From: Amycolatopsis sp. 2-15
Lineage (GTDB): Bacteria; Actinomycetota; Actinomycetes; Mycobacteriales; Pseudonocardiaceae
Length of the DNA stretch: 64,000 nt
Direction: 5' to 3'
Assembly (NCBI RefSeq): GCF_030285625.1
Contig: NZ_CP127294.1
Location: 9,804,001 to 9,868,000 of the forward strand
Positions 2,953-37,890 of the stretch are shown in pieces; position 1 is the first letter of the stretch; the number at the start of each line of letters is the position of its first letter. Position numbers and translations under genes: made by a program. The notes under the pieces were generated by a model. That model was not told where the DNA came from, did not search any database, and was given only the letters and a program-made list of their open reading frames with translations.

Positions 2953-3726
2953 GTGACCAACGCAGCCACCCGGGCCGAGGCACTGCACCTCACCGGCGAA
3001 CGGACCGTCCCCGGCATCCCCGAGGAGAATTACTGGTTCCGTCGCCACGAAGCCGCCTACGTCGCTCTGCTCCCCCACTGCGCCGGCGCGACGGTGCTGG
3101 AGGCGGGCTGCGGCGAGGGGTACGGCGCGGGGCTGATCGCGAAGACGGCGCGGCGCGTGCTGGCGCTGGACTACGACGTGCCGACGACGGAACACGTCGC
3201 GCGCCGGTACCCGGACGTCGCGGTGGCGCGCGCGAACCTCGCATATTTGCCGTTGAGCGGCGAATCCGTGGACGTGGTCGCGAACTTCCAGGTGATCGAG
3301 CACCTGTGGGACCAGGACGGGTTCCTCGCCGAATGCTTCCGCGTCCTGCGGCCGGGCGGGAAAATGCTGGTCACGACGCCGAACCGGCTGACGTTCACGC
3401 CCGACTCCGACACGCCGCTGAACCCCTACCACACCCGGGAGCTCGCACCGTCCGAATTGGACGGTCTGCTGCGCGCCGCCGGGTTCGTCGTCCAATCGCT
3501 ACACGGGTTGCATCACGGGGAACGGCTGCGCGAGCTGGAACGCGCGTACGGCGGCTCGATCATCGACGCGCAGCTCGAGGTGGTGATGGGCTCGCTGCCC
3601 GGGCAGGCCGTGTGGCCGGCGGGGTTGCTCACCGACGTCGCGGCGATCGGGGCGGAGGACTTCTCCGTCCGCGGTGACGACCTGGACGCGAGCCTCGACC
3701 TGGTCGCGGTGGCGGTGCGCCCGTGA
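2953..3726 (+). CDS. Class I SAM-dependent methyltransferase (Rv3030-like)
   Basis: About 257 residues from GTG 2953; a GTG at 2929 in frame is an alternative. The SAM-binding motif I is TVLEAGCGEGYGAG, motif II LALDYDVPTTEHVA, then VVANFQVIEHLWD and the RVLRPGGKMLVTTPNRL block of Methyltransf_11/25 proteins. It is joined by a 4-base GTGA overlap to the GH57 branching enzyme, and a GT4 transferase follows further on, as in the mycobacterial MGLP locus. This suggests O-methylation of an alpha-glucan or mannan, but the substrate is inferred from context only. Residues near 100 (LPLSGES) are encoded by a copy of the dispersed palindrome at 3247-3264. Confidence 0.85.
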   Translation: MTNAATRAEALHLTGERTVPGIPEENYWFRRHEAAYVALLPHCAGATVLEAGCGEGYGAGLIAKTARRVLALDYDVPTTEHVARRYPDVAVARANLAYLPLSGESVDVVANFQVIEHLWDQDGFLAECFRVLRPGGKMLVTTPNRLTFTPDSDTPLNPYHTRELAPSELDGLLRAAGFVVQSLHGLHHGERLRELERAYGGSIIDAQLEVVMGSLPGQAVWPAGLLTDVAAIGAEDFSVRGDDLDASLDLVAVAVRP

Positions 3727-5255
3727 CTCCGCCTGCCTCGGAAGGCACTTTTTGCCTCGTCCTGCACAGCCACCTGCCCTGGTTGCCGCACCACGGCAGC
3801 TGGCCCGTCGGCGAGGAGTGGCTCTACCAGGCGTGGGCGCATTCGTACCTGCCGGTCGTCGACCTGCTGCAGCGTTTCGCCGCTGAGGGGCGACGCGAGG
3901 TCCTGACGCTCGGCATGACGCCCGTGCTCGCGGCGCAGCTCGACGATCCGTACGCGATCCGTGCGTGCCACGACTGGCTCGGCGACTGGCAGCTGCGCGC
4001 GCGGCACGCGTCGACGCTGTGGGGCGGCGACCCGCTCCTGCGCGACCTGGCCGCGGCCGAGCACCAGACAGCCGTGCGCGCGACGGAGGAGCTGGAGACA
4101 CGCTGGCGCCACGGGTTCTCGCCGATCCTGCGGTCACTTGTGGACAGTGACACGATCGAACTGCTGGGGGGGCCGCTCGCGCACCCGTTTCAGCCGTTGC
4201 TGGACGAGGACGTCCGCGCGTTCGCTTTGCGCGAAGGCCTGGCCGATGCGCAGCTGCGCGTTGGGCGGCGGCCAGAGGGCATCTGGGCGCCGGAATGCGG
4301 CTACGAGCCCGGGATGGAACGGGGTTACGCCGCGGCGGGCGTGCAGCGGTTCCTCGTCGACGGGCCGTCGCTGCACGGCGACACGTCGACGGCGCGCACG
4401 GTCGGCTCGTCGGACGTGGTGTGTTTCGGGCGCGATCTCGAGGTGACGTACCGGGTCTGGTCGCCGAAAGCCGGCTACCCGGGGCACGCGGCGTACCGCG
4501 ATTTCCACACGTGGGCGCACGAAGTGGGGTTGAAGGCTTCGCGCGTCACCGGCAAGCAGGTGCCGCCGCATGAGAAGGCGCCGTACGACCCGGCGCTGGC
4601 GGCCGGCGTGCTCGGTACGCACGTGAAGGACTTCGTCGACACGGTCGTCGCGCGGCTGCGTTCGCTGCGGGAGCAGCACGGACGTGAGTCGCTTGTGGTC
4701 GCGGCGTACGACACGGAGCTGTTCGGGCACTGGTGGCACGAGGGTCCCGCGTGGCTCGAGGGGGTGCTGCGCGCGTTGCCCGAGGTGGGTGTGCGCGTGA
4801 CGACGCTGCAGGGCGCGCTGGAGGCCGGCCATGTGGGGGCGCCGATCGACCTGCCGGCGTCGTCGTGGGGCTCGGGCAAGGACTGGCGCGTTTGGGACGG
4901 CGAGCAGGTGGCCGACATGGTGCAGGACAACACCGCGTTGCAGAAACGCTTGCTGGACCTCGTTTCCGGGCACTTCGGAGAGCACGGGGGGACCGCTCGC
5001 GACACCGTGGCCGATCAGGCCGTCGCGGAGGCGATGCTGGCGTTGTCGAGTGACTGGGCGTTCATGGTCACCAAGGACTCCGCCGCGGATTACGCGCGCC
5101 GGCGCGCCCGCGTGCACGCCTCGCGTTTCGACGAGCTCGCCGGGCTGCTGCGCTCCGGCGACCACGCCCGCGGGCACGAGCTCGCGGCGGAGTACCGCCG
5201 CGCCGATGGACCGTTCGGACAGCTGGACGCACGACAGCTGCTGCCACACAAGTGA
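3723..5255 (+). CDS. GH57 1,4-alpha-glucan branching enzyme (Rv3031-like)
   Basis: A 510-residue protein starting at GTG 3723, inside the stop of the preceding gene. The N-terminal FCLVLHSHLPWLPHHG is the GH57 strand-1 motif. The catalytic nucleophile is Glu191 in GIWAPECGYEPG, and the acid/base is Asp330 in AAYDTELFGHWWHEGP. A C-terminal DUF1957-type helical domain follows, ending in SDWAFMVTKDSAADYA. Length and motifs fit actinobacterial GH57 branching enzymes, which introduce alpha-1,6 branches. Coupling to the methyltransferase points to a methylated storage or lipid-binding polysaccharide rather than bulk glycogen. This assignment is strong for family and moderate for pathway. Confidence 0.92.
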   Translation: MTPPASEGTFCLVLHSHLPWLPHHGSWPVGEEWLYQAWAHSYLPVVDLLQRFAAEGRREVLTLGMTPVLAAQLDDPYAIRACHDWLGDWQLRARHASTLWGGDPLLRDLAAAEHQTAVRATEELETRWRHGFSPILRSLVDSDTIELLGGPLAHPFQPLLDEDVRAFALREGLADAQLRVGRRPEGIWAPECGYEPGMERGYAAAGVQRFLVDGPSLHGDTSTARTVGSSDVVCFGRDLEVTYRVWSPKAGYPGHAAYRDFHTWAHEVGLKASRVTGKQVPPHEKAPYDPALAAGVLGTHVKDFVDTVVARLRSLREQHGRESLVVAAYDTELFGHWWHEGPAWLEGVLRALPEVGVRVTTLQGALEAGHVGAPIDLPASSWGSGKDWRVWDGEQVADMVQDNTALQKRLLDLVSGHFGEHGGTARDTVADQAVAEAMLALSSDWAFMVTKDSAADYARRRARVHASRFDELAGLLRSGDHARGHELAAEYRRADGPFGQLDARQLLPHK

Positions 5256-5270
5256 AAGGGACACCGAGGA

Positions 5271-5759
5271 ATGAGCATTCGCGATATCCCGCTGAAGACG
5301 CTCTCGGGTGATGACACCACCCTGGGCGCGCTCGGCGGCAAGGCGCTGCTGGTGGTCAACGTCGCCTCCAAGTGCGGCCTGACCCCGCAGTACACCGGCC
5401 TGGAGCGGCTGCAGGAACGCTACGGCGACAAGGGTTTCTCCGTCGTCGGGTTCCCGTGCAACCAGTTCGCCGGCCAGGAGCCCGGGACGGCCGACGAGAT
5501 CCAGACGTTCTGCTCCACCACCTACGGCGTCACGTTCCCGCTGTTCGAGAAGCTCGAGGTGAACGGCGACGACCGTCACCCGCTGTACTCCACGCTCACC
5601 CAGACCGCTGACGCCGAGGGTGCAGCCGGCGACGTGCAGTGGAACTTCGAGAAGTTCCTGATCGACTCCGACGGTGAGGTCGTGGGCCGGTTCCGTCCGC
5701 GGACCGAGCCCGAGGACGACACCGTGGTGAAGGCGATCGAGGCCGTGCTGCCTGCCTGA
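5271..5759 (+). CDS. Glutathione peroxidase-family (thioredoxin-type) peroxidase
   Basis: A 162-residue protein with the GPx blocks VNVASKCGLTPQYTGL (peroxidatic Cys35), VVGFPCNQFAGQEPG and WNFEKFLIDSDGEVVGRF, so Cys, Gln and Trp of the catalytic site are present. A further Cys at about residue 81 (FCSTTYGVTFP) is placed like the resolving Cys of thioredoxin-dependent GPx enzymes. The protein probably reduces peroxides using thioredoxin, since actinomycetes lack glutathione (general knowledge). A ribosome site (GAAAGGGAC) precedes the ATG 15 bases after the GH57 gene, so it may be co-transcribed. It is not part of the mycobacterial MGLP locus. Confidence 0.93.
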   Translation: MSIRDIPLKTLSGDDTTLGALGGKALLVVNVASKCGLTPQYTGLERLQERYGDKGFSVVGFPCNQFAGQEPGTADEIQTFCSTTYGVTFPLFEKLEVNGDDRHPLYSTLTQTADAEGAAGDVQWNFEKFLIDSDGEVVGRFRPRTEPEDDTVVKAIEAVLPA

Positions 5760-5778
5760 TTTTCACGGCCGGCGAAGG

Positions 5779-5808
5779 GCGGGGACTCCGTTGGGGTTCC
5801 CGCTTTTT
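5779..5808 (+). terminator. Rho-independent terminator after the peroxidase gene
   Basis: GCGGGGAC / GTTCCCGC form an 8-bp stem around a 9-base loop, followed immediately by TTTTT (5804-5808). This ends the methyltransferase-GH57-GPx transcript. Confidence 0.8.
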
Positions 5809-5812
5809 CGTG

Positions 5813-5830
5813 TCGCCGTTCAGCGGCGAA
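5813..5830. repeat. Dispersed palindrome, consensus copy
   Basis: TCGCCGTTCAGCGGCGAA, the archetypal form of the family, lies just after the terminator and just before the stop codon of the convergent GH2 gene. It can fold into a 6-7 bp hairpin with a 3-base loop. No open reading frame is needed here. Confidence 0.85.
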
Positions 5831-5836
5831 ACGTCT

Positions 5837-7639
5837 CTAGCTGGGGTTTTGTGGCTCCTGGGCGGCTTCGACGGCCGGGAACGAGCCGCAGGTGATGACC
5901 GCGCGGTTGCGGGCGGTCGCGACGTCCGCATCGAGTTTGGTCACGCGGCGGTCGTAGGTGAGCAGGCCGTTGACCTCGTTTTCGACGTCCGTGGTCTGGG
6001 TGTAGATCGCGCCGGAGAGGCCCCATTCGCCGACCAGGGACTCCAGTCGGTTGCTGAGCTCCGCGTAACGGCGCGTGAGGTGATCGGCGTCAGCGGTCAT
6101 CTCGTACGCGTTGGGCGGGCCGGGCCAGCCGTCGTCGTCGAGGACGAGCCCGAGGCCCCCGTACTCACCGTCGATGAGCGCGCGGTGGTCCTGCACGCGC
6201 GGCTCGCCGGGGCCGACGTACGTGTGGTCGTCGTAGACATCGCCGGCGCCTGTGTCGGTACGGGAGAAGCAGCAGTTCACGCCGCTGTTGGCCACGACGA
6301 GGCGAGTTGGGTCGAGCTCCTTCACGACCTCGGCGATTCGCGCCGTGTCGAACTCACCCCAGCCCTCGTTGAACGGCACCCACGCGACGATCGACGGCAC
6401 GTTCCGCAGCAGCCGCACCATTTCGCGCAGCTCGGCCTCGAAGCGTTCCTTGCCCTCGGGCACCGGGTCCGGCGCCGGCCCGGGCGGCCCGTCGAACGAC
6501 ACCACCAGCGACGGCATGTCCTGCCAGACGACCAGGCCCAGCCGGTCGGTCCAGTGGTACCAACGCGCGGGCTCGACCTTCACGTGCTTGCGGACGCAGT
6601 TGAAGCCGAGCTCTTTCGTCTTTTCGAGGTCGAATCGCAGGGCGTCGTCGGTGGGCGCGGTGTAGCCGCCGTCGGGCCAATAGCCCTGGTCGAGCGGGCC
6701 GTGGAGGAAGGTGATCCGCCCGTTGAGGGCGACGCGGGGACGGCCGGCGGAATCCGGGACGAGCTCCACGGTGCGCAGTCCGCCGTAGCTGGTGACCTCG
6801 TCGAGCACGTCGCCGTGGTGGTCGAGCAGGCGCACGGTGAGGTCGTAGAGATACGGATCGTCGGGAGTCCACCAGTGGGGCACCGGGACGTCCGCCCGCA
6901 GCCGCGTGCCGGCGGCCCCGCGGACGCTGACGATCTCGTCGCCGCTGGGTGGCGAAACGCTCAGCTCGACTTGATCACCGCCCTTGGCCTGGGGAAATAC
7001 AGTGAAGCCCGCGAGGTCCGGAGTGATCTGCAGGTCCTCGATGCGGCCGGATGGCACCGGCTCGAGCCACACCGTCTGCCAGATCCCGGACGTCGGCGTG
7101 TAGCAAATGCCCCCCGGCGCGTTGCGCTGCTTGCCGAGCGGGAACGGCGCGATGTCGGTGCGGTCCTCGGCGCGAACGGTCAGCTCTTGCGGCCCGGACG
7201 CACGCAGCGCATCGGTGACGTCGGCCGCGAACGCCGTGTAGCCACCCTCGTGGGTGACCACGAGCTGGTTGTTCACCCAGACCTTCGCTGTCTGGTCGAC
7301 CGCGCCGAAGTGCAGCAGCACGCGTTCACCACGCCAGTCGTCGGGAATCTCGAACAGCCGCCGGTACCAGAGGACCTCGTCGCGCCGGTTGATTCCGGAG
7401 AGTGCCGATTCCGGCGCGAAGGGGACCAAGATGCGCTCCCCGTAGCCGACGGGCCGGGGTTCCTCGGGCGACGACGGCCACCCCGCGTAGTCCCAGACGC
7501 CGTTGAGGTTCAGCCACCGCGGCCGCCTCAGCTGCGGTCTGGGGTACTCGGGGAGCACGTTGGAGCGGCTGACGAGGTCGGTCCACGGCGTCGTCAGGGG
7601 CGGGTCCGCGCGCTGCCACTCGGGCTGGCTGGAAGTCAT
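5837..7639 (-). CDS. Glycoside hydrolase family 2 protein
   Basis: A 600-residue protein from the ATG at 7639 (MTSSQPEWQRADPPLTTPWT), with the GH2 layout: a sugar-binding jelly roll (RPRWLNLNGVWDYAGW ... ERVLLHFGAVDQTAKVWVN), an immunoglobulin-like domain, then a TIM barrel. The acid/base Glu lies in VAWVPFNEGWGEFDT and the nucleophile is probably the Glu in ALIDGEYGGLG. No signal peptide is visible, so it is likely intracellular. Substrate specificity (beta-galactoside, glucuronide or mannoside) cannot be read. It stands on the opposite strand within the MGLP-like gene order. SPPSGDE in the Ig-like domain is encoded by the palindrome at 6939-6956. Confidence 0.88.
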   Translation of the reverse strand: MTSSQPEWQRADPPLTTPWTDLVSRSNVLPEYPRPQLRRPRWLNLNGVWDYAGWPSSPEEPRPVGYGERILVPFAPESALSGINRRDEVLWYRRLFEIPDDWRGERVLLHFGAVDQTAKVWVNNQLVVTHEGGYTAFAADVTDALRASGPQELTVRAEDRTDIAPFPLGKQRNAPGGICYTPTSGIWQTVWLEPVPSGRIEDLQITPDLAGFTVFPQAKGGDQVELSVSPPSGDEIVSVRGAAGTRLRADVPVPHWWTPDDPYLYDLTVRLLDHHGDVLDEVTSYGGLRTVELVPDSAGRPRVALNGRITFLHGPLDQGYWPDGGYTAPTDDALRFDLEKTKELGFNCVRKHVKVEPARWYHWTDRLGLVVWQDMPSLVVSFDGPPGPAPDPVPEGKERFEAELREMVRLLRNVPSIVAWVPFNEGWGEFDTARIAEVVKELDPTRLVVANSGVNCCFSRTDTGAGDVYDDHTYVGPGEPRVQDHRALIDGEYGGLGLVLDDDGWPGPPNAYEMTADADHLTRRYAELSNRLESLVGEWGLSGAIYTQTTDVENEVNGLLTYDRRVTKLDADVATARNRAVITCGSFPAVEAAQEPQNPS

Positions 7640-7718
7640 CACCTCCGATGGTGACAGAGATCGGAGGCGGCGACAGCCGGGCCGCCCGACGGAAGCGACT
7701 GGCGAGTAACCTCTGCCC

Positions 7719-8972
7719 ATGCGCGTGCTGATGCTGTCGTGGGAGTACCCGCCCGTGGTCATCGGCGGGCTCGCCCGGCACGTGCACGCGCTGGCTCGGC
7801 ACCTCGCCCAGCAGGGCCACGACGTGGTGGTTCTCTGCCGCCACCAGGCCGGCACCGACGCGTCGACGCACCCGCGCAGCGACCGCGACGTCGAGGGCGT
7901 GCGGCTGATCCGCGTGGCCGAGGACCCCATGCACCTGACGTTCGAACGCGACCTCGTCGCCTGGACGCTCGCCATGGGCCACGCCATGATCCGCGCGGCG
8001 CAGGACCTGCTGCGCACGTGGCAGCCCGACGTCGTCCACGCGCACGACTGGCTCGTGACCCACCCCGCGATCGCCATCGCCGAGGCCGCGCGCGTGCCGC
8101 TCGTAGGCACCGTCCACGCGACCGAAGCGGGCCGGCACTCCGGCTGGCTTTCGCACCCGCTCAACCAGCAGGTGCATTCCGTCGAGTGGTGGCTGGCCAA
8201 CCGCGCCGACGCCGTGATCACGTGCTCGCAGGCGATGCGCAAGGAAGTGGCGCACCTGTTCGAGATCGAGGCCGCCGAAGTCACCGTGATCCACAACGGC
8301 ATCGAAGAACGCAGCTGGCGCGTCTCGGCCGCCGAAGTGGCGAAGATGCGGGAACGACACAGCCCCGACGGCGCGCCGTTCCTGCTGTTCTTTGGTCGGC
8401 TGGAGTGGGAGAAGGGCGTGCAGGACCTGCTGGCCGCGCTGCCCCGCATTCGTCGCCAGTTCCCGGGCACGCGCGTGGTCGTCGCCGGTAAGGGGCGACA
8501 CCACGACGAGCTGGTCGCGCAGGCGCGCAAGCTGCGGATTCGCCGCGCGGTGGACTTCGTCGGTCACCTGCCCGACCGTGACCTGCGCGCGCTGCTGGCC
8601 GCGGCGGACGCCGTGGTGCTGCCGAGCCGGTACGAGCCGTTCGGGATCGTCGCCCTGGAGGCCGCGGCCGCGAAAGCGCCCCTTGTCGCGTCGACGGCGG
8701 GTGGCCTCGGCGAGGTGGTCGTCGACGGGGAGACGGGCCTGGCGTTCGAACCGGGCGACGTCGCGGGTCTGGCCACGGCGGTCACGACCGTCCTCGGCGA
8801 CGCCGCCGCCGCGACCCGGCGCGCACGAGCGGCCCAGTCGCGCCTCGGGGCGGACTTCGACTGGGGACGCATCGCCGAAGCGACCGTGGAGGTCTACCGG
8901 CGTGCGCGCATGGGCGAACCGATCGAGCTGGGACGCCCGAAGATCGCGACGGGCAACGCGTTCGAACTCTGA
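7719..8972 (+). CDS. GT4 family glycosyltransferase (Rv3032-like)
   Basis: A 417-residue GT-B enzyme. The N-terminal MRVLMLSWEYPPVVIGGLARHV is the acceptor-side glycine loop of glycogen-synthase-like GT4 proteins. The donor site has LLFFGRLEWEKGVQDLL and the E-x7-E motif in SRYEPFGIVALEAAA. In mycobacteria the homolog Rv3032 is the alpha-1,4-glucosyltransferase that elongates MGLP, and partly glycogen. Here it is separated from its methyltransferase and GH57 partners by two unrelated genes and has its own promoter region, divergent from the GH2 gene. Family is certain, pathway inferred from gene set. Confidence 0.88.
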   Translation: MRVLMLSWEYPPVVIGGLARHVHALARHLAQQGHDVVVLCRHQAGTDASTHPRSDRDVEGVRLIRVAEDPMHLTFERDLVAWTLAMGHAMIRAAQDLLRTWQPDVVHAHDWLVTHPAIAIAEAARVPLVGTVHATEAGRHSGWLSHPLNQQVHSVEWWLANRADAVITCSQAMRKEVAHLFEIEAAEVTVIHNGIEERSWRVSAAEVAKMRERHSPDGAPFLLFFGRLEWEKGVQDLLAALPRIRRQFPGTRVVVAGKGRHHDELVAQARKLRIRRAVDFVGHLPDRDLRALLAAADAVVLPSRYEPFGIVALEAAAAKAPLVASTAGGLGEVVVDGETGLAFEPGDVAGLATAVTTVLGDAAAATRRARAAQSRLGADFDWGRIAEATVEVYRRARMGEPIELGRPKIATGNAFEL

Positions 8973-8984
8973 GTGGGCCCGCCG

Positions 8985-9113
8985 TCAGAAGTGGCAGGGC
9001 CGGACGCAGGCGGCGTACGCCTGCTCGGGCGCCGAGACCACCGACGCTGCGGTGAGACCGAGGGCGAAAACGGCCAGCAAAGCAGCGACGACGGCTCTGG
9101 ATCTGCTGGTCAT
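8985..9113 (-). CDS. Possible 42-residue exported peptide with two C-terminal cysteines
   Basis: The reverse strand from the ATG at 9113 encodes 42 residues. It starts with a short basic MTSRSR and continues with a hydrophobic stretch AVVAALLAVFALGLTAASVV. It then has SAPEQAYA, which resembles a signal-peptidase cleavage region, and ends ACVRPCHF. The order (basic, hydrophobic, AxA, small Cys-containing tail) is that of a secretory precursor. I see no clear ribosome site, so the call is tentative. It is convergent with the glycosyltransferase gene and 12 bases from its stop. Confidence 0.4.
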   Translation of the reverse strand: MTSRSRAVVAALLAVFALGLTAASVVSAPEQAYAACVRPCHF

Positions 9114-9340
9114 GACGGATCCGTGGATATCCGGTGGGGTGTTCGAAGCATCCGTCCGTCGCCGCGTGCGAAAGAATAGGGGAAGCAGCAGATAGGCCTA
9201 CCCGAACGCGGCGAGTGACCGGTTCGTCCGGCTTCGTCGCGGGAATGTGGAACGCATGGTGTCGCCGCTCATCGACCACGCGGCCGGGCTCGTTCCGGCT
9301 GTCGTCGGGATGCGTCGTGCGCCAGCTTTTTCGGCCCATG

Positions 9341-9355
9341 GATTGTTGAACAATC
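9341..9355. promoter_or_regulatory. Perfect inverted repeat upstream of the phosphoribosyltransferase gene
   Basis: GATTGTTGAACAATC has 7-bp arms about one central base, 35 bases before the predicted GTG start at 9390. It could be an operator. Apart from this site and the small peptide gene, the 9114-9389 interval holds nothing I recognise. Confidence 0.35.
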
Positions 9356-9389
9356 TGCGTGCCGTCGCGCCTTGGCTGGTGGCGCGACC

Positions 9390-10022
9390 GTGGTGAGGAG
9401 ATTGTTCTACGACCGGATCGACGCCGGCCGGCGACTCGGGCGGATCCTGGCCAGGCAGCCGTGGGTCGAGCCCGTCGTGCTCGGGTTGCCGCGCGGGGGC
9501 GTGCCGGTGGCGGCCGAGGTCGCCCAGGCGCTCGGAGCTCCGCTGGACGTCGTGGTCGCTCGGAAGATCGGGGCGCCCGGGCGGCAAGAGTTCGGTGTCG
9601 GCGCAGTGACGGCGGAGGGGCCGCCCTACTACTCGATGTCGGCGTTGCGCGCGTTCGGGCTCACGCCGAAGGCGATGGAACCGGCGTGTTCGCGCGAGCG
9701 AGCCGAGGCGCGTCGCCGTTTGGCGGCCTATCGCGACGGGCGCCCGCCGGTGGCGGTGGCCGGCCACGACGTGCTCGTGATCGACGACGGACTGGCAACC
9801 GGCGTCACCGCGATGGCCGCCGTCCGCGACCTCCGCGACGCGCGGCGCGTGGTGCTGGCCGTGCCGGTGTGCGCGCCGGACGCCGTCGCCGAGTTCGAAG
9901 GCGAGGTGGACCAGTTCATCGCTGTCGCCGCGCCGAGGCGATTCAGCGCCGTGGGGCATTGGTACGTCGACTTCACCCAGGTGTCGGACGCGACCGTGGT
10001 CAGGCTCCTCGGGAAGGAATGA
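9390..10022 (+). CDS. Phosphoribosyltransferase-domain protein
   Basis: About 210 residues. The PRPP-binding loop is HDVLVIDDGLATGVTAMAAV (two acidic residues, then GLATG), and the N-terminal YDRIDAGRRLGRILARQ and VLGLPRGGVPVAAEVA blocks are typical of the stand-alone phosphoribosyltransferases in dormancy/stress islands of actinobacteria (such as the Rv0571c type). The start is uncertain: TTG 9372, GTG 9390 and GTG 9393 are all in frame, and I chose 9390. The base or compound that is ribosylated is unknown. Confidence 0.8.
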   Translation: MVRRLFYDRIDAGRRLGRILARQPWVEPVVLGLPRGGVPVAAEVAQALGAPLDVVVARKIGAPGRQEFGVGAVTAEGPPYYSMSALRAFGLTPKAMEPACSRERAEARRRLAAYRDGRPPVAVAGHDVLVIDDGLATGVTAMAAVRDLRDARRVVLAVPVCAPDAVAEFEGEVDQFIAVAAPRRFSAVGHWYVDFTQVSDATVVRLLGKE

Positions 10023-10080
10023 AGGGGACCTTCATCCCACTATCCACAACGGACAGTAACAATCGCCGTCGAACGGCGAA
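10020..10080. repeat. Short palindrome plus dispersed-palindrome copy
   Basis: TGAAGG-GGA-CCTTCA (10020-10034) overlaps the stop codon of the phosphoribosyltransferase gene. TCGCCGTCGAACGGCGAA (10063-10080) follows. The second belongs to the dispersed family and the first is a different 15-base palindrome that may act as a weak terminator. Confidence 0.6.
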
Positions 10081-10174
10081 AATCCCTGGCACGATGGGAG
10101 GTTCAGGGCGCAAGGTATGCGTACCTCGCCACCCCGGCGATGGGCCGACGTCGACTACGAGGAGCAGCCCGATC

Positions 10175-10753
10175 ATGGACGTCTGGTTCACCGCCGACAC
10201 CCACTTCGACCACCAGCTCGTGGCCGGCCTGCGCGGGTTCGAGACACCGCCCGAGCACGACGCGTTCGTGGTCGAGCGGTGGAACGCCACCGTGCGGCCG
10301 GGCGACCAGGTGTGGCACCTGGGTGACGTCGGCATGGGCCGGCTGGCGCGGTTCTCCGACACGCTCCGGCAGCTGAACGGCCAGATTCACCTCATCACCG
10401 GCAACCACGACGAGCCGTGGCCCGGACTGCGCCAGGCGCATCGGCACCAACGCGCGTGGCTGGAGCATTTCGCCACGGTGCAAGCGTTTGCGCGCCGCCG
10501 GATCGCGGGGCAGAACGTGCTGCTCAGCCATTTCCCGTACGAAGGCGACCATGTGGGCGAGGACCGCGGGTCGCAGTACCGCCTGCCCGACGAGGGGCTG
10601 TGGCTGCTGCACGGTCACGTCCACAGCGCGTGGCGCAAGCGGGGCCGGCAGCTGAACGTCGGAATGGACGTCAACGACCTTCGCCCCCTGCACCTCGACG
10701 CCGTCACCACCGAGCTGGCCGAGCTCGGAAGCCCCGCGGAAACCGGCCTCTGA
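10175..10753 (+). CDS. Calcineurin-like metallophosphoesterase
   Basis: A 192-residue protein starting MDVWFTADTHFDHQ. Metal-binding motifs appear in order: DTHFDH, WHLGDVG, TGNHD, LSHFP and LHGHVHS, the complete set for the two-metal phosphoesterase fold. A GGAGCAG ribosome site (10160-10166) supports the ATG at 10175. Related small proteins hydrolyse 2',3'-cyclic or other phosphodiesters, but the substrate is not predictable. It stands alone, convergent with the next methyltransferase gene. Confidence 0.85.
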   Translation: MDVWFTADTHFDHQLVAGLRGFETPPEHDAFVVERWNATVRPGDQVWHLGDVGMGRLARFSDTLRQLNGQIHLITGNHDEPWPGLRQAHRHQRAWLEHFATVQAFARRRIAGQNVLLSHFPYEGDHVGEDRGSQYRLPDEGLWLLHGHVHSAWRKRGRQLNVGMDVNDLRPLHLDAVTTELAELGSPAETGL

Positions 10754-10781
10754 ACAGCCAAGACCTGCCACCGGGCACCTG

Positions 10782-10799
10782 TTGCCACTCAGTGGCGAC
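10782..10799. repeat. Dispersed palindrome between convergent genes
   Basis: TTGCCACTCAGTGGCGAC lies in the 51-base space between the stop of the phosphoesterase and the stop of the methyltransferase. Its inner pair is A-T (CCACTCAGTGG) where other copies have G-C (CCGCTGAGCGG). This is a compensatory change that argues for selection on, or inheritance of, a stem. No other terminator is seen here. Confidence 0.8.
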
Positions 10800-10804
10800 A
10801 AGAC

Positions 10805-11587
10805 TCAGGGCACGCGGCCGGTCAGGATCGTCACGCGCACCGGTTCGCGGAACGGCGCGTGGGGCTCGATCGCCGAGCGGATGCGGTCCTCGAAGGCCGG
10901 CCGTTCGCCGCTGGGTGGCAACTCGTCCTCGCCCATGGCCGAGTAGACGCCGCCGATGATCTCGGCCGCGGTGAGGTCGCCGGCGTACTCGACGGTGCGG
11001 AGGCCGACGTCGTAACCGGCGCCGGCCAGGGCGGCGCGGTAACGGTCCTGGCTGGCGTCGTCCGTTCCGCAGGCTGCGGTGAGGGGCTGGCCGAACCAGT
11101 CGGACAGCACGCCGAGCAGCGCTCGCGACCAGTCGCTGTCCTGGAGCCACAGCGGTACGCCGTTGGTGACCACCGCGATGCCGCCGCCCGGCCGGAGCAT
11201 CGGCTTCACGGCGGCGAACAGCGTCGCGTGGTCCATCCAGTGCAGAGCCTGCCCGATGGTGACGACGCCGAGCCCGTCGAGCAGGGAATTCAGCGACGTG
11301 ACGTCGGTGTCGCCGCCCAGGAGCCACGACGCGTTGGTCACGCCGGCGTCGGCCGCGGCACGGCGGGCGCGCGAGAGCATGTCGGGTGAGGGGTCCATGC
11401 CCGCGACCGCGCGGACCCGCGCGGCCATCGGCACGGCGAGCTGGCCCGTGCCGCACCCGAGGTCGAGGACCACGTCGTCCCCGGCCAGGGCGAACTCGGC
11501 GGTGATCGCGTCGAACACCGCCGTCGGGTAGCCGCGGCGGTAGCGGTGGTAGAACTCCGTGACTTCTCCGCTGAATCCCAGGCCCAT
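10805..11587 (-). CDS. Class I SAM-dependent methyltransferase
   Basis: A 260-residue protein. YHRYRRGYPTAVFDAI is followed by motif I VVLDLGCGTGQLAVPMA, motif II VAGMDPSPDMLSRAR, and GQALHWMDHATLFAAVKPMLRPGG, the usual UbiE/Methyltransf_11 architecture. The ATG at 11587 begins MGLGFSGEVTEFY. The substrate is unknown. The C-terminal LPPSGERPAF is encoded by a palindrome copy (10905-10922). It is monocistronic between the phosphoesterase (convergent) and the NTF2-like gene (same strand, 58 bases upstream). Confidence 0.82.
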   Translation of the reverse strand: MGLGFSGEVTEFYHRYRRGYPTAVFDAITAEFALAGDDVVLDLGCGTGQLAVPMAARVRAVAGMDPSPDMLSRARRAAADAGVTNASWLLGGDTDVTSLNSLLDGLGVVTIGQALHWMDHATLFAAVKPMLRPGGGIAVVTNGVPLWLQDSDWSRALLGVLSDWFGQPLTAACGTDDASQDRYRAALAGAGYDVGLRTVEYAGDLTAAEIIGGVYSAMGEDELPPSGERPAFEDRIRSAIEPHAPFREPVRVTILTGRVP

Positions 11588-11645
11588 GGCTGAATCCTGG
11601 CGGCACTTCAGGGAGAAATCACGCGCGTTCGCTCACGGCCGAGGC

Positions 11646-12104
11646 TCAGAAGATCGGGAATTCCTTGCCGTGCTCGGCTTCCGGGCGCTTGCCGAAGATC
11701 CAGCGTTCGCTCTCCGCGATCGGGCGGTCGTTGATGCTCGCCTCGCGGCGGCGCATGAGGCCTTCGTCGCTGAACTCCCAGAGCTCGTTGCCGTAGCTGC
11801 GGAACCACTGGCCCTCGGCGTTGTGCGATTCGTACTGGAACCGCACGCCGATGCGGTTGCCGCGGAAGCCCCACAGTTCCTTGCGCAGCGCGTAGTCGAG
11901 CTCGCGCTCCCACTTCTGGGTCAGGAACTTGACGATCTCCGCGCGGCCGACGACGTACTGGTCGCGGTTTCGCCACACGGAGTCCTCGGTGTAGGCGAGG
12001 GAGACCTTCTCGGGGTCGCGCGTGTTCCAGGCGTCCTCGGCGGCCTGGACCTTCTGGCGGGCGGTGTTCTCGTCGAACGGCGGGAACGGCGGACGCGGTG
12101 TCAT
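11646..12104 (-). CDS. NTF2-like protein, DUF1348 family
   Basis: A 152-residue protein with the DUF1348 sequence pattern: [48 protein letters not shown] and [24 protein letters not shown]. The SnoaL/NTF2 cone fold usually binds a small ligand, and no catalytic set can be named. The gene is divergent from a TetR regulator with two palindromes between them, so it is the probable target of that regulator. Confidence 0.82.
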
Positions 12105-12127
12105 GGCGGGCTCCTGCGCGGATCGCG

Positions 12128-12179
12128 GGAGAACGTCCGTTCTCCCTGGTGTCGGCTAGCATAGAGAACGTTAATTCTC
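12128..12179. promoter_or_regulatory. Paired TetR-type operators between the DUF1348 gene and its regulator
   Basis: GGAGAACGTCCGTTCTCC (12128-12145) is palindromic except for its central two bases. GAGAACGTTAATTCTC (12164-12179) is a second, less perfect copy. The centres are 35 bp apart. The two share GAGAA...TTCTC arms and lie between the divergent starts at 12104 and 12199, as expected for an autoregulating TetR protein. Confidence 0.7.
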
Positions 12180-12198
12180 CACACCAGAGGGACACGAC

Positions 12199-14832: not shown

Positions 14833-14897
14833 CTCGTACCTCCGCGAGGGAAAGAAGGGGGGCGGGCCGGCGACCGGGTCGCCGGCCCGCGGGAACG

Positions 14898-29585: not shown

Positions 29586-30245
29586 TCAAGCGCGCGGGAG
29601 GAGGCCGTCCAGCAGGGCGTCGAGGCCTGCGGCGTAGTTGTCCCAGGCGTGGGGCCATTCGCCGGCCAGGGACGAGATCAACGGAAGCTCCTCGGGGTGG
29701 GCGTCGAGGACCATGGTGCGTTGCACCTGCGGAGCGTCCTGGTCACGCTCGGCCGCGTGCGTCGTCGTCGCGTGGCGAATGGTCAGCACGCCCACCGTGT
29801 ACTGCCAGACGATCCGGTACGCGGCGGCGGCCTGCCGGGGAGCGAGACCGGAGGCGACGAACCCGGCCAGAATCTCCTCCACCAGCCACAACACGGACGG
29901 GCCGGCCAGGTCGCCCTGCGCCAGCACACCGACCACCCACGGGTGCTCCGCCAGGGCGTCGTGCAGCTGTCGCCATAAAACGACCAAACGCCGGCGCGCG
30001 TCTTCCGGCAGCGTCGGCCGGGGCAGCGTGGCGGCGGTGTGGTCCAGCAGGAGCAACAGAAGCTCGTCTTTGTCGCGGACGTGCCGATAGAGCGCCATCG
30101 GGGAACAGCCGAGCTCGCGGGCGACGCGGCGCATGGTCAGCGCGTCGACGCCCTCGGTCGTGACGATCCGGCCGGCCGCCTCGACGATGTCGTCGCGCGA
30201 CCAGCGCGCGGGACGGCCCGGCCGGCCTGGTGCTGTCTCAGCCAT
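29586..30245 (-). CDS. TetR family regulator (TetR_C large-type)
   Basis: A 219-residue protein starting MAETAPGRPGRPARWSRDDI. The helix-turn-helix is in VDALTMRRVARELGCSPMALYRHVRDKDELLLLLLDH, the typical TetR class with the C-terminal TetR_C domain (WRQLHDALAEHPWVVGVL). It lies upstream of the frameshifted FAD oxidoreductase on the same strand and divergent from a second TetR gene. It may bind the GTACTAGTAC palindrome at 29551 and/or the pair at 30282-30317. Confidence 0.88.
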   Translation of the reverse strand: MAETAPGRPGRPARWSRDDIVEAAGRIVTTEGVDALTMRRVARELGCSPMALYRHVRDKDELLLLLLDHTAATLPRPTLPEDARRRLVVLWRQLHDALAEHPWVVGVLAQGDLAGPSVLWLVEEILAGFVASGLAPRQAAAAYRIVWQYTVGVLTIRHATTTHAAERDQDAPQVQRTMVLDAHPEELPLISSLAGEWPHAWDNYAAGLDALLDGLLPRA

Positions 30246-30959: not shown

Positions 30960-31862
30960 ATGCCTCATGCGACCCATGCCCGGATCACGCCGCTTCCATT
31001 GGCGGAACTGGCTCCCGAGGAGCAGAAGCTCGCGAAACTCGGTGCCGACGAGGTGATCCGGGTGCTCGCGCGGAACCCGTCGTTGATGAAGGCTTCGTCG
31101 GGTCTCGGCGAACACCTGCTGTCTCGAGGCAAGCTCCACCCGCGGGTCCGGGAATTGGTGATCTTGCGGGTCGCGCTGCGGTGTGAAGCGCCGTACGAGT
31201 GGGCCAACCACGTGCCCGCCGCGCTCGGCGCCGGCGCGACGGCAGAGGAGATCAACGCGCTGTCGGATCCGGCCGCGGTGTGGCCGCCCGGGGACGACGC
31301 GGTGCTCCGCGCGGCCGACGAGTTGTGCGCCGAGGCGTTCGTCTCGGACGAAACGTGGGCGGCTCTCGCGTCGACGCTCGATGAGGCGACGATCCTCGAG
31401 GTGCTGTTCCTCGTCGGCTATTACCGGATGATGGCGGGGTTCCTGAACTCCGCGGGCGTTGAGGTGAAGCCGGGGCAGCCGGTGCTGGGCGAGCGCGTGG
31501 CGCCGATGGTCGCGGCGGGACCGGTCGTGGCCGACGCGTTGCCGTTCAGCGGCGAAACCGGCGTCGACGGAACGTGGCACATCACCTTCACGCACCCCGC
31601 GGGGAGCAAAGAGCTGGTGCTGGACCTCGAAACCGGGGACGACGGCGTGACTGGGTCCATCGTGGACACTCAGCTGGGCGTGACGGTCCCCATCGTGTCG
31701 GGCGGTGTCGACGGTCACCGTCTGGACTTCACCGCCGTGGTGACCGATCCAGCGCGGTTCGACATCGGTGTGGTAGGCACAGTCGACGGCGACGTGTTCA
31801 CCGGATCGGTGACGATTTCGGGTGGCGGGACGTTCCCGTTTTCGGGTGTCCGCGCGGGGTGA
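30960..31862 (+). CDS. Carboxymuconolactone-decarboxylase/AhpD-like domain fused to a C-terminal beta-rich domain
   Basis: A 300-residue protein. Residues about 30-165 are the CMD/AhpD-like helical domain (SSGLGEHLLSRGKLHPRVRELVILRVALRCEAPYEWANHVPAA). The usual C-x-x-C pair is reduced to a single Cys in RCEAPYEW, with His as in non-peroxidase CMD proteins. Residues about 200-300 (DGTWHITFTHPAGSKELVLDLE to GGGTFPFSGVRAG) are a repetitive beta pattern like a small lipocalin- or streptavidin-like barrel. The hinge ADALPFSGETGVDG contains a palindrome copy (31539-31556). Ribosome site GGGAGGA. Typical family members stop near residue 185. Confidence 0.8.
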   Translation: MPHATHARITPLPLAELAPEEQKLAKLGADEVIRVLARNPSLMKASSGLGEHLLSRGKLHPRVRELVILRVALRCEAPYEWANHVPAALGAGATAEEINALSDPAAVWPPGDDAVLRAADELCAEAFVSDETWAALASTLDEATILEVLFLVGYYRMMAGFLNSAGVEVKPGQPVLGERVAPMVAAGPVVADALPFSGETGVDGTWHITFTHPAGSKELVLDLETGDDGVTGSIVDTQLGVTVPIVSGGVDGHRLDFTAVVTDPARFDIGVVGTVDGDVFTGSVTISGGGTFPFSGVRAG

Positions 31863-32508: not shown

Positions 32509-33330
32509 GTGAGCGGCAACGAGCTGGGAGATTTCCTGCGTGCGCAGCGAGCCCGGCTGGCGCCCGAGGACGCGGGCGTGACCGGTCATGGCCCGAGGAG
32601 GGTGAGCGGGCTGCGGCGCGAGGAGGTCGCGGTGCTGGCGGGCGTCAGCGCGGACTACTACGCGCGCCTCGAGCAGGGGCGTGAGCGCAACCCGTCCGGG
32701 CCGGTCCTGGACGCGCTCGGGCGGGCGCTGCGGCTGAACGCCGATGGCCTCTGGCACGCCTACCGTCTCGCCGGCCTCGTGCCACGGGTAGCCGAGCACC
32801 GGCGCGACGACGTCTCCCCCCAGCTCTTGCGGCTCATGGGCACCTTTCCCAACGCGGTCGCATACGTCACCAATCGGCGCCTCGACCTGCTGGCGACCAA
32901 CGCGCTCGCCGACGCGCTCCTGTCCCCCGTCGGCAAGCCGGCGAACATGGTGCGCACGCTGTTCCACAACCCGGCGGCGCGCGAGCTTTTCGTGGAGTGG
33001 GACGACATCGTGGCCAGCGCCGTCGACGCGTTGCGGCTCGCGAGCGGCTACGACCGCGAGGAGGTCGGTGAGCTCGTGGACGAGCTGCTGGCCACGAGCG
33101 AGGAATTCGCCGTTCTGTGGCGAAACCACGGTGTGAAGGGGCTCGCCGGGACGCGCAAGACGTTCCACCACCCCGCCGTCGGTCGGCTCGTGCTGGACTA
33201 CCAGACGTTCGACGTGCGCGACGCGTCCGGCCAGTACCTGCTGGTGGGCATCGCGGAGCCGGACAGCGCGAGCGCCGACGCACTGGCGTTGCTGGGGTCG
33301 TTGCCCGCGCTGGCCGGCCGGCCGCGGTGA
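32509..33330 (+). CDS. XRE family regulator with MmyB-type ligand-binding domain
   Basis: A 273-residue protein from GTG 32509. The N-terminal helix-turn-helix has the classic motif VSGLRREEVAVLAGVSADYYARLEQGRERNPSGPVLDALGRAL. The C-terminal MmyB-like PAS domain follows (RRLDLLATNALADALLSP, NMVRTLFHNPAARELFVEWDDI). Such regulators usually stand next to an SDR gene that they control, and here an SDR follows at 33447. A GGTGTG-C-CACACC palindrome lies just after the gene. Confidence 0.9.
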   Translation: MSGNELGDFLRAQRARLAPEDAGVTGHGPRRVSGLRREEVAVLAGVSADYYARLEQGRERNPSGPVLDALGRALRLNADGLWHAYRLAGLVPRVAEHRRDDVSPQLLRLMGTFPNAVAYVTNRRLDLLATNALADALLSPVGKPANMVRTLFHNPAARELFVEWDDIVASAVDALRLASGYDREEVGELVDELLATSEEFAVLWRNHGVKGLAGTRKTFHHPAVGRLVLDYQTFDVRDASGQYLLVGIAEPDSASADALALLGSLPALAGRPR

Positions 33331-33446: not shown

Positions 33447-34167
33447 ATGAACGGCAAGATCGCGCTGATCACGGGCGCGAGCAGCGGCATCGGCGAGGCC
33501 ACCGCCCTGCGCCTGGCCGCCGACGGTCACCACGTCGTCCTGGGCGCCCGCCGCACCGACCGGCTCGCGGCGCTCACGGAGAAGATCCGCGCGAACGGCG
33601 GCAACGCCGATTTCCGGCAACTGGACGTGACCAGTCTGGAGAGCGCGCGCGTTCGTGACGGCCGCGCACGGGAGCCACGGCCGGGTCGACGTGCTCGTGA
33701 ACAACGCCGGCGTGATGCCGCTGTCCACTCTGGACAAGCTCCGCGTCGTCGACTGGAACCGGATGATCCACGTGAACCTGCGCGGCACGCTGCTCGGGAT
33801 CGCCGCCGTGTTGCCGCTGATGGGCGAAACCGGGGGCCACATCGTGAACGTCGCGTCGACGGCCGGCCTGCGCGTGGACCCGACGGCGGCCGTGTACTGC
33901 GCCACGAAGTTCGGGGTACGGGCGCTTTCCGAAGGCCTGCGCCAGGAGAACACGAACGTCCGTGTCACCATCGTCAGCCCGGGCTTCACGCACTCCGAGC
34001 TCGCCGGCCAGGGCGGGGATCCCGAGACGCAGGCGGCGGCGCGCGCGGCGAGCGAGCAGCTGGGCATCCCGGCTTCGGCTATCGCGGACGCCATCGCCTA
34101 CGCCGTGAGCCAGCCGGCGGCGGTGGACGTGAACGAGATCGTGGTGCGGCCGACGGCCCAGACCTGA
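33447..34167 (+). pseudogene. Short-chain dehydrogenase, split by a GC-dinucleotide frameshift
   Basis: The 5' part (MNGKIALITGASSGIGEATA through RTDRLAALTEKIRANG to LDVTSLES) carries the cofactor glycine motif. The remainder (FVTAAHGSHGRVDVLVNNAGVMPLS, catalytic NVASTAGLRVDPTAAVYCATK with Ser, Tyr and Lys, ending VVRPTAQT) is in another frame. The break is in GCGCGCGCG at 33643-33651. One extra GC would give an in-frame SLES-A-R-A-F-V-T junction. Both halves look functional, so this is either very recent, phase-variable, or an error. Total would be about 241 residues, normal for an SDR. Confidence 0.78.
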
Positions 34168-34185
34168 GCCGTTGCGGAACCCTCC

Positions 34186-34320
34186 CGGCGCGGCGGGGTC
34201 CGTCGTGCCGATCCGGCGCGGCGGGGCCCGTCGTGCCAATCCCTGCGCGGCGGGACCTGTCGTGCCGAGCGGGCGCGAAGGGACCGGTCGTGCCCATCCA
34301 GCACGGCGGGTCCCGCCGCG
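34186..34320. repeat. GC-rich tandem repeat, about 28-29 bp period, four to five units
   Basis: CGTGCC recurs at 34204, 34232, 34261 and 34289 within a unit like GCGCGGCGGGGCCCGTCGTGCC. The last copy, near 34310, is degenerate. The array fills the space between the SDR stop and the SRPBCC stop (convergent genes). No gene is recognised in it. Confidence 0.75.
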
Positions 34321-35939: not shown

Positions 35940-36944
35940 GTGAACGAGAACTACGACGTCGTGGTGGTCGGCGGCGGTGCCGCAGGCCTCAGCGGCGCGG
36001 TGGCGCTGGCGCGCTCACGGCGTTCCGTGCTGGTGGTGGACGCCGGCGAGCCACGCAACGCTCCGGCCGGCCACGTGCACAACTACCTCGCCCGCGAGAG
36101 CACGCCGCCCGGCGAGCTGCTGGCATCCGGGCGTGAAGAGGTCATCGGGTACAGGGGCGAGATCGTGGCCGGGGCGGTGACCTCGGCCGCCGCGCTGGAC
36201 GGCGGGGGGTTCGTCGTGACCCTCGCCGATGGGAGGACCACGCGAGCGCGTCGCCTCCTAGTGGCGACGGGGCTCGTCGACGAACTGCCGGACATCCCGG
36301 GCGTCGCCGAGCGGTGGGGCCGCGACGTGCTGCACTGCCCGTACTGCCACGGCTGGGAGGCACGCGACCAGGCGATCGGCGTGCTGGCGACGAACCCGAT
36401 GGCCGTCCACCAAGCGCTGATGTGGCGGCAGCTGTCGGACGACGTGGTCGTTTTCCGGCACACGGCTGCGTTCGACGAGGAGCAGATCGCGCAGCTGACC
36501 GCGCGCGGGATCCGGATCGTCGGCGGCGAGGTGACGGCACTTCGGGTGGAGGACGACGCGCTCACCGGCGTGGTGCTGCGCTCGGGTGAGGTGGTGGCGC
36601 GGGAGGCCGTGGTGATCGCGCCGCGGTTCACGGCGCGGGCCGACGTGCTCGTGTCGCTGGGGCTGGAGCCGGTGGAACTGGAGGTCGACGGGCACGTGAT
36701 CGGCAGTTCGGTGCCGGCGGACGCGAACGGCGCCACCTCGGTGCCCGGGGTGTGGGTGGCCGGGAACGTGACCGACATGAAGTCGCAGGTGGTCGTGTCC
36801 GCGGCGGCCGGGCTGACGGCCGGCGCGATGATCAACGGCGATCTCGTCGCCGAGGACGTACGACGGGCGCGGGACCCTTTCGCGCACGACATGGAACGGC
36901 AGGTTGCCGCGCTGGTCGGCGACTCGACGAAACACGGGGTGTGA
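35940..36944 (+). CDS. Thioredoxin-reductase-like FAD/NAD(P)-dependent oxidoreductase
   Basis: A 334-residue protein from GTG 35940 (AGGAGGA ribosome site). The FAD site is YDVVVVGGGAAGLSGAVALA and the redox-active pair is in DVLHCPYCHGWE. ATGLVDELPDIPG and the C-terminal GVWVAGNVTDMKSQVVVSAAAG complete the fold. It lacks the full-length thioredoxin-reductase NADPH GxGxxA motif (LATNPMAVHQALMW instead), as in the DUF-type TrxR-like proteins that pair with a small methyltransferase. Physiological substrate unknown. Confidence 0.88.
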   Translation: MNENYDVVVVGGGAAGLSGAVALARSRRSVLVVDAGEPRNAPAGHVHNYLARESTPPGELLASGREEVIGYRGEIVAGAVTSAAALDGGGFVVTLADGRTTRARRLLVATGLVDELPDIPGVAERWGRDVLHCPYCHGWEARDQAIGVLATNPMAVHQALMWRQLSDDVVVFRHTAAFDEEQIAQLTARGIRIVGGEVTALRVEDDALTGVVLRSGEVVAREAVVIAPRFTARADVLVSLGLEPVELEVDGHVIGSSVPADANGATSVPGVWVAGNVTDMKSQVVVSAAAGLTAGAMINGDLVAEDVRRARDPFAHDMERQVAALVGDSTKHGV

Positions 36945-36946: not shown

Positions 36947-37576
36947 ATGGCTGAGCAGCACGAAGAAGTCCCGTTCGACCAGGATTCCTGGGACGAGCGG
37001 TACCGGTCGAAGCCCGCGATCTGGAGCGGGCGGCCCAACGCGCAGCTCGTGACGGAAGTCGCCGGCCTGCGCCCGGGCAGCGCGCTCGACGCCGGCTCCG
37101 GCGAAGGCGGCGACGCGGTGTGGCTCGCGCAGAACGGCTGGCGCGTGACAGCCGCGGACTTCGCGGCCACCGCCCTCGACCGGGGTGCGGCACAGGCGGC
37201 CGAGCTGGGCCTGGGCGACCGGATCCGGTGGCTGACGACCGACCTCACGACGTGGGTGCCGGACGAGAAGTACGACCTCGTCACTTCGCACTTCCTGCAC
37301 TTGCCGACGGCCCAGCGCGTCCCGATCTTCGCGCGGCTCGCGGACGCGGTGGCGCCGGGCGGGACGTTGCTCATCGTCGGCCACCACCCGACGGACGTGG
37401 AGGGCGCCGCGCACCGGCCGAATGTGCCGGACATGTTCTTCCTGGCGGAGGATGTGGCGGCGACGTTGGACGAGTCGTGGGAGTCCGTGGTGACCGATGC
37501 ACGGGAGCGGGCAAACGTGATCGAGGGGCACGAAGTGTCCATTCGCGACACTGTGTTGGTGGCGCGGAAGCAGTGA
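36947..37576 (+). CDS. Class I SAM-dependent methyltransferase (TehB-like)
   Basis: A 209-residue protein: FDQDSWDERYRSKPAIWSGRPNAQLV, then motif I SALDAGSGEGGDAVWLAQNGWRVTAADF, and SHFLHLPTAQRVPIFARLADAVAPGG. This resembles tellurite-resistance TehB or thiopurine methyltransferase relatives. It starts 2 bases after the reductase stop, so the pair is an operon and probably acts on one xenobiotic or redox-active substrate, under the XRE-cupin regulator. Confidence 0.88.
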   Translation: MAEQHEEVPFDQDSWDERYRSKPAIWSGRPNAQLVTEVAGLRPGSALDAGSGEGGDAVWLAQNGWRVTAADFAATALDRGAAQAAELGLGDRIRWLTTDLTTWVPDEKYDLVTSHFLHLPTAQRVPIFARLADAVAPGGTLLIVGHHPTDVEGAAHRPNVPDMFFLAEDVAATLDESWESVVTDARERANVIEGHEVSIRDTVLVARKQ

Positions 37577-37596
37577 GTTCCTTGGTCGGGCGCCTG

Positions 37597-37890
37597 TTGC
37601 CATTGGGTGGCGACGGGTGTCCGGCCAGGTTTCGCCGGTGAATGGCGGTTGTCGCCGTGCGGTGGCGACGGCTCGCGCGATTCGCCGGTGAGCGGCGACG
37701 GCATTCGCCAGTGCATGGCGACAGGTCGCACCATTCGCCGTTCAGTAGCGACAGCTCGCGCGATTCGCCGCTGGGCGGCCACGGCATTCACCAGTGCATG
37801 GCGACAGGTCGCACCGCTCGACTTTCAGTGGCGACGGGTCGCGCCGTCGCTCGCCGTTGGGCGGCGAGGTGTTCGCCCGTGAGTGGCGAA
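37597..37890. repeat. Array of about eleven dispersed palindromes with an 83-bp higher-order duplication
   Basis: Units start at 37597, 37632, 37652, 37682, 37705, 37735, 37765, 37788, 37818, 37851 and 37873. The pattern 30-23-30 repeats: 37682/37765, 37705/37788 and 37735/37818 are each 83 bases apart, with matching linkers (such as ACAGGTCGCACC). The array is intergenic, between the methyltransferase stop and the YjbR start. The remaining bases 37577-37948 contain no gene. Confidence 0.92.

Follow-up and report, generated by a model that had tools for sequence, protein, structure and literature searches.

A 17 bp interrupted palindrome, TCGCC-N7-GGCGA, is confined to one segment of approximately 170 kb in the 10.05 Mb chromosome of Amycolatopsis sp. 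2-15. With a probability of about 60%, we interpret this word as the recognition site of a putative dimeric, sequence-specific DNA-binding protein that would mark or organize the segment in a manner similar to MatP and its matS sites. The analysis concerns a window of 64 kb, bases 9,804,001–9,868,000 of the single 10,050,063 bp contig of this strain (genome G000; other genomes are numbered likewise), in which a sequence-only reading, made without database searches, had reported a dispersed family of near-palindromes.

Occurrence and confinement of the palindrome

The window contains 26 exact copies of TCGCC-N7-GGCGA, compared with a mean of 0.59 and a maximum of 3 in 100 dinucleotide shuffles. 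The repeat family is thus real, and the initial estimate of less than one chance copy in 64 kb was correct. When one mismatch is allowed, 69 copies are found vs 13.1 in shuffles (largest value, 21). A position-weight scan at a score of at least 10 yields 51 sites, of which 49 lie within positions 3247–37889 and the other two at 50987 and 58155. The stretch 3247–37890 outlined by the sequence-only reading therefore holds nearly all sites, and its end coincides with the end of the genomic cluster. All individual coordinates named in that reading are matches, but 26685, which falls in the 26505–26778 group, and some of those in 37652–37873 have one mismatch.

The whole chromosome harbors 92 exact copies, compared with 35 copies of the reversed control word. 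All 62 exact copies found between 9.60 and 10.00 Mb are localized inside 9.67–9.85 Mb. A profile built from these 62 copies (cut-off score 10) identified 122 sites in 9.67–9.846 Mb vs 6 in the remaining 224 kb fetched around it, a rate that predicts 4.7 for the segment. The cluster has a near-empty gap at 9.72–9.75 Mb. Its right-hand edge is sharp in G000, with zero exact copies beyond it up to 10.00 Mb, as well as in G012 (three profile sites in the following 160 kb) and G009 (none in 80 kb).

The consensus is approximately TYGCC-R-Y-T-S-A-R-Y-GGCRA, with two 5 bp half-sites TCGCC situated 7 bp apart. Clear conservation is limited to the 17 bp, with a preference for G or T just before the word and for C or A just after it. 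Iterating the profile with the flanks included was abandoned, as it picked up codon periodicity. The spacing is strongly fixed: for TCGCC-Nk-GGCGA in five genomes carrying the cluster (carriers), k = 7 gives 62, 56, 49, 64, and 53 copies, while every other k from 0 to 15 gives at most 11.

Symmetry of the half-sites

The sequence-only reading had described covariation of the inner positions, as expected for a stem. This was not borne out: among 138 distinct exact-arm sites from G000, G009, and G012, the Watson-Crick pairs at positions 6–12, 7–11, and 8–10 number 57, 34, and 60 vs 58.8, 44.5, and 55.0 after shuffling, and the inner positions show weak base preferences.

On the other hand, the arms behave as two halves of one site. 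Sites with TTGCC in a single arm are frequent (15 + 24 in G000, 9 + 23 in G009, 19 + 37 in G012), whereas the double variant TTGCC-N7-GGCAA was observed 1, 0, and 0 times in these genomes vs 5.8, 4.2, and 11.0 expected under independence (in sum, 1 vs 21), 3 times in G051 (8.4 expected), and never in G026 (9.6 expected). Hence one weakened half is tolerated and two hardly ever are, as would be characteristic of a two-fold symmetric site that has to retain a minimum affinity for its binder.

Selection and turnover of sites

Divergence between G000 and G051 is 0.030 in the arms, 0.154 in the inner bases, and 0.135 in the flanks; the respective values for G012 and G026 are 0.044, 0.170, and 0.187 (0.050, 0.176, and 0.177 in the reverse direction). 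As the sites were picked in one genome, which by itself lowers arm divergence, the fair comparison is with matched control words, that is, unattached TCGCC or GGCGA within 300 bp, picked in the same way as the sites. In intergenic regions, arms diverge at 0.039 vs 0.107 for control words (G000/G051), 0.044 vs 0.107 (G012/G026), and 0.049 vs 0.104 (reverse direction). The corresponding coding values are 0.015 vs 0.047, 0.042 vs 0.068, and 0.055 vs 0.060. Outside genes, the arms are thus conserved approximately 2.1- to 2.7-fold over control words; in the coding sites of G012/G026, for which the samples are smaller, the effect is weaker or missing.

Individual sites turn over, while the cluster persists: of 123 G000 sites, 78 could not be aligned with G009, and of the 45 with an assigned position there, 17 are retained. 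An example of a conserved coding site is that at window position 3877 (chromosomal position 9,807,877), identical in G000, G051, G012, and G026 and with one inner change in G009; the non-carriers G049 and G029 have another codon choice in common here. At coding sites, the mean codon preference of synonymous differences is −1.20 for 55 differences to G049 (background, −0.117) and −0.90 for 31 differences to G029 (background, −0.121). These values lean toward selection but are partly due to ascertainment, since the word itself requires A and T.

Placement relative to genes

The placement described in the sequence-only reading (ends of genes, gaps between convergent genes, coding sequence) is seen again in the window and in five carriers. 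Site density per kb in these carriers is 4.3–5.9 in convergent gaps, 1.5–2.8 in co-directional gaps, 0.15–1.0 in divergent gaps, and 0.19–0.27 in coding regions (0.04–0.11 in coding regions of two non-carriers), with genes placed by homology from our own gene calls, some starts of which are wrong, and with the in-frame array at 26505 of an NlpC/P60 gene assigned in part to the intergenic class. Sites are present in 1/33, 3/29, 1/23, 2/21, and 3/20 divergent gaps and in 10/73, 10/63, 9/59, 5/49, and 4/44 co-directional gaps of the same five genomes; by this count, only G000 and G009 show a clear difference.

Forty-one of the 122 segment sites in G000 are situated inside called coding sequence. 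Coding regions considered separately contain 22 exact copies, compared with a mean of 0.8 and a maximum of 8 over 139 permuted or respaced control words; with one mismatch, the 65 observed copies are matched by five of these 139 words, and there is no discrimination.

Gaps holding sites exceed their G049 counterparts in length (median 343 vs 92 bp; 18 gaps), while site-free gaps are similar (69 vs 76 bp; 101 gaps), indicating that added DNA and duplication help to build the arrays. When the 123 G000 sites are compared with G049, 83 are unaligned, 14 hit an indel, and 26 align without gaps. These 26 are all situated in coding sequence; at 22 of them, G049 differs through substitutions and has no site.

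Distribution and history of the cluster

The sequence-only reading had also proposed a search of this and related genomes, and the result is a lineage-specific cluster. By GatB, the closest named relatives are Amycolatopsis species (93–94%). Within 80 genomes of the genus, TCGCCRNTSANYGGCGA is present in five or more copies in 16 genomes, in three copies in one, and in 0–2 copies in 63 (control, 0–1). In 200 genomes sampled from the family, those of other genera have four copies at most. In six carrier genomes, a stricter word is found mostly in the orthologous segment by the NlpC/P60 gene, with a few strays elsewhere and 0–1 control copies per genome.

Profile sites in 200–220 kb around the NlpC/P60 gene number 123 in G000, 119 in G051, 102 in G009, 141 in G012, and 127 in G026 (the latter count leaves out 20 kb of the stretch). 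The respective stretches of the non-carriers G049 and G029 contain 7 and 13 profile sites and one exact copy each, with the G029 stretch being syntenic only from about 9.742 Mb onward. At the NlpC locus (20 kb), nine further carriers have 9–17 exact copies and eleven non-carriers have none. In non-carriers, a switch to another motif was considered and rejected: the best other inverted words reach z of 7.5 (G049) and 8.7 (G029), compared with 23.9 for the motif in G000.

In a tree of 27 genomes (8.5 kb), 14 carriers and G049 form one clade with support 100, and G049 is the sister of G000 and G051, again with support 100; a tree of seven genomes (51.8 kb) gives the same placement of G049. Both trees were built from this segment alone, and the carriers G064 and G069 were left out. 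With the carriers forming one clade in which G049 is nested, the simplest history suggested by these segment trees would be a single gain followed by one almost total loss in G049.

In G000, dnaA is situated at 1.632 Mb and parS-type words at 1.639 Mb. In ten genomes of 6.9–11.1 Mb, the NlpC end of the cluster is located 1.55–1.9 Mb from dnaA, on the same side (assuming circularity where the path wraps). The segment is not the origin, and this distance makes it unlikely to be the replication terminus.

Sites and neighboring features in the window

The sites in the window are listed below. The repeat-made tail of the NlpC/P60 protein is missing from G049 and G029. The array at 37590–37900 has no match in plasmids; in viral contigs, at least 80 loci among the matches listed have one palindromic site each.

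Sites of the 17 bp word in the window (profile scan, score at least 10; window positions, no strand assigned; PLP, pyridoxal phosphate)
Positions	Sites	Location	Remarks
3247–3893	2 (3247, 3877)	inside methyltransferase gene and GH57/branching-enzyme-like gene	
5813–5829	1	between convergent genes	directly after a separate terminator-like hairpin (by eye)
6939–6955	1	glycosyl hydrolase family 2 gene	
8482–8498	1	glycosyltransferase gene	
9925–10079	2 (9925, 10063)	near the end of and after phosphoribosyltransferase gene	
10782–10921	2	10782 between convergent genes; 10905 in methyltransferase gene	
12749–13032	5 (array)	between convergent genes	gap of 493 bp; in G049, 684 bp without sites
14274–14290	1	malate synthase gene	
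18606–18622	1	PLP-dependent (threonine dehydratase-like) gene	
19610–20190	3	19610 and 20010 intergenic; 20174 coding	
20592–20608	1	coding, alpha/beta hydrolase gene	reads SPLNGE
22174–22828	2	coding; 22174 in GntR-type gene, 22812 in carbon-nitrogen hydrolase gene	
23802–23818	1	coding, amino acid permease gene	
24607–24713	4 (array)	convergent gap of 119 bp	in G049, gap of 14 bp, no site
26505–26794	7 (array)	N-terminal coding part of NlpC/P60 protein (26475–27929)	in frame, mostly S-P-x-S-G-D
29659–29675	1	coding	weak, score 10.0
31539–31555	1	coding, carboxymuconolactone-decarboxylase-like gene	
33107–33123	1	coding	
33811–33827	1	coding, gene with short-chain dehydrogenase match	
36251–36267	1	coding, pyridine nucleotide-disulphide oxidoreductase-like gene	
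37597–37889	10 (array)	between co-directional genes	partly 83 bp tandem repeat (37652–37844); right-hand cluster edge

The segment genes in the window are varied and largely metabolic, including malate synthase, isocitrate lyase, a ScfRs-domain regulator, a permease, and others; outside the window, the segment contains leuD, two hup copies, ilvC, serA, and leuB (by eye from translations). The two near-identical hup genes (HU-like, by eye) are inverted (9,742,317–9,742,985 and 9,747,804–9,748,406) and flank the leuD-like gene. Two copies are also present in the stretches of G051, G009, G012, G026, and G049, and one was found in that of G029.

Other repeats were observed as well. Beside a hup gene, in the palindrome-poor part of the segment, there is a separate tandem array of units spaced by approximately 120 bp (9,740,748–9,741,347), in which four copies of 110 nt are 76–100% alike to the reference. 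A long run of short repeats at about 9,750,000–9,751,000, near tRNA-Glu and tRNA-Gln genes, has frames reading (SG)n, (EP)n, and (SQ)n. In the window, a 28/57 bp tandem repeat at 34183–34315 is unrelated to the palindromes.

Comparison with known systems

Dispersed palindromes bound by a single protein are known, e.g., the RacA sites of Bacillus and the KorB sites of RK2. The closest parallel is provided by matS and MatP, as both sets consist of many scattered copies of a short odd-length palindrome in one chromosomal domain. matS is a 13 bp word with 23 copies in the terminus (Ter) region, found by an in silico search for scattered domain-specific targets (PMC3116907). The word described here is different, has 17 bp and approximately 120 copies in approximately 170 kb, and is located in a segment unlikely to be the terminus, in genomes lacking a MatP match (14 genomes). 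We propose that the putative system would work like matS, yet outside the MatP family.

Other systems share fewer features. The SlmA sites of E. coli are also palindromic with a domain-biased distribution, but they have another word and are spread over non-Ter DNA rather than packed in one segment; the same source gives 50 copies of a 12 bp site, with Ter free of them (PMC3116907). Like parS, the sites are palindromic and grouped in one region, but the parS-type words lie near dnaA, and no copy of ParB tracks the motif. Within the literature searches made, we found no account of such a cluster and no occurrence of the motif string.

Alternative explanations

Of the three possibilities offered by the sequence-only reading, a protein-binding site fits best, whereas a repetitive extragenic palindromic (REP) element and an RNA hairpin fare poorly. 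A selfish or amplifying short repeat, either REP-like or expanding through duplication of arrays, which has spread locally and has no host function, seems unlikely, although it survives better than the other alternatives. It would account for the added length of site-holding gaps and the large share of sites unaligned or at indels in G049, for the array that is partly a tandem repeat, for the in-frame array in the N-terminus of the NlpC/P60 protein, and for dispersed short palindromes at gene ends, with a high density in convergent gaps as in REP elements. It does not fit the restriction of clear conservation to 17 bp, the conservation of the arms relative to control words, the missing stem covariation, the many coding sites and the substitutions by which these differ from the non-carrier G049, or the confinement to the orthologous segment in the carriers examined (62/92 exact copies in approximately 170 kb for G000). 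Moreover, as the sequence-only reading had noted for the window, no REP-associated tyrosine transposase (RAYT) was found: the Y1 profile (PF01797) has no match in 29 genomes at E 0.001, while control genomes match in 5/14 cases.

Operators of a regulator controlling the segment genes, i.e., a local regulon, would be palindromic dimer-type sites under selection, as observed here. However, in each of the five carriers, intergenic sites are sparsest in divergent gaps, where promoters are located, even if gap-wise the difference from co-directional gaps is clear in two of these genomes only, and the genes are varied and largely metabolic; this explanation is improbable.

We give still less credit to an RNA hairpin acting as a terminator, mRNA end, or processing signal. 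Five of six site-bearing stretches do fold better than shuffles (z from −2.3 to −8.5; the sixth, 31519–31575, has z of 0.43), and sites are situated at gene ends. Against this, inner covariation is missing, the T2-A16 pair that would restore pairing is avoided, the spacer is fixed at 7, separate terminator-like hairpins adjoin sites in two gaps (by eye), Rfam yields no match at the gathering score in the window, and the confinement to approximately 170 kb is left unexplained. A terminator scan of window positions 1–20000 yielded seven terminator-like sites vs 8.1 expected, one of which (10079–10063) is a motif copy.

The possibility that a nuclease, methylase, or recombination/transfer system recognizes the word and acts on the segment is equally hard to credit, as the interrupted palindrome with an exact spacer resembles bipartite restriction sites but is enriched, rather than avoided, and only regionally, with weakly preferred inner positions.

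A putative segment-marking protein

Under the explanation that we favor, a putative dimer would bind the two TCGCC half-sites at their fixed 7 bp spacing, and the approximately 120 sites would turn the segment into its target. Most likely, the protein would compact or tether this DNA or mark it in some other way, similarly to the action of MatP on the matS sites of the E. coli terminus. Binding by a protein, its dimeric state, and a function in domain organization, as opposed to another segment-wide role, are what we infer from the pattern of sites.

Several observations weigh against this interpretation. The binder was not found: neither the three protein families searched nor the genes present in the segment and its right flank provided a DNA-binding candidate that tracks the motif. 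MatP (PF06303) has no match in 14 genomes, while the E. coli control matches. ParB_N matches strongly once per genome in all 29 genomes examined and has a weak second match in six, of which G034, G012, and G024 are carriers and G056, G052, and G013 are non-carriers; hence, no ParB copy tracks the motif across this set. Segment genes that are present in carriers and missing from the extended G049 stretch encode ABC transporter pieces, an MFS-type transporter, a histidine kinase, and a 312 aa protein. In one of the three coding comparisons (0.055 vs 0.060), the arms are not conserved relative to control words. Part of the array growth comes from added DNA and from tandem duplication, neither of which is required if the sites serve for binding alone. 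Finally, no remnants of sites are seen in the G049 gaps read, although decay alone might have left some; a relic-free loss of this kind would fit a history in which the binder disappeared first and the sites were then removed through deletion and codon drift.

Candidate partners were rejected. The 312 aa protein is present in G029 as well and does not track the motif. The histidine kinase, partial in G049, has a full-length-type match in 11 of 12 other non-carriers; the carrier G001 has only a 44% paralog-type match. The carrier-specific genes at 9.758–9.760 Mb are ABC transporter pieces (by eye from translations); these broken gene pieces (9,757,931–9,760,334 in G000) are matched in G009, G012, and G026, some of them in G051, and not in the G049 or G029 stretches. 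In the right flank (9.84–10.0 Mb), none of 126 open reading frames (ORFs) has a G012 match above 55% or any G049 match. The comparison of the dnaA region with G049 was uninformative, as a long run of neighboring G000 ORFs is unmatched, most likely because the G049 stretch covers other genes.

Domain-specific chromosome organizers are known from few bacteria. More tentatively than the binding site itself, and with the odds somewhat against it, we suggest that the cluster may represent a previously undescribed chromosome-domain system of actinomycetes, in which a dimer would act on approximately 120 evolvable sites among ordinary mid-arm genes, the whole having been gained once in a clade of Amycolatopsis and dropped wholesale in one of its members, and in which selection would introduce sites into coding regions as well. 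The availability of carriers together with a species that would have lost the sites naturally allows for direct comparison of a dense clade-specific cluster, and raises the question of what need there would be to mark a single stretch of ordinary genes. If the interpretation is true, selection for a DNA-binding word shapes coding sequence, including an in-frame protein tail built from the word.

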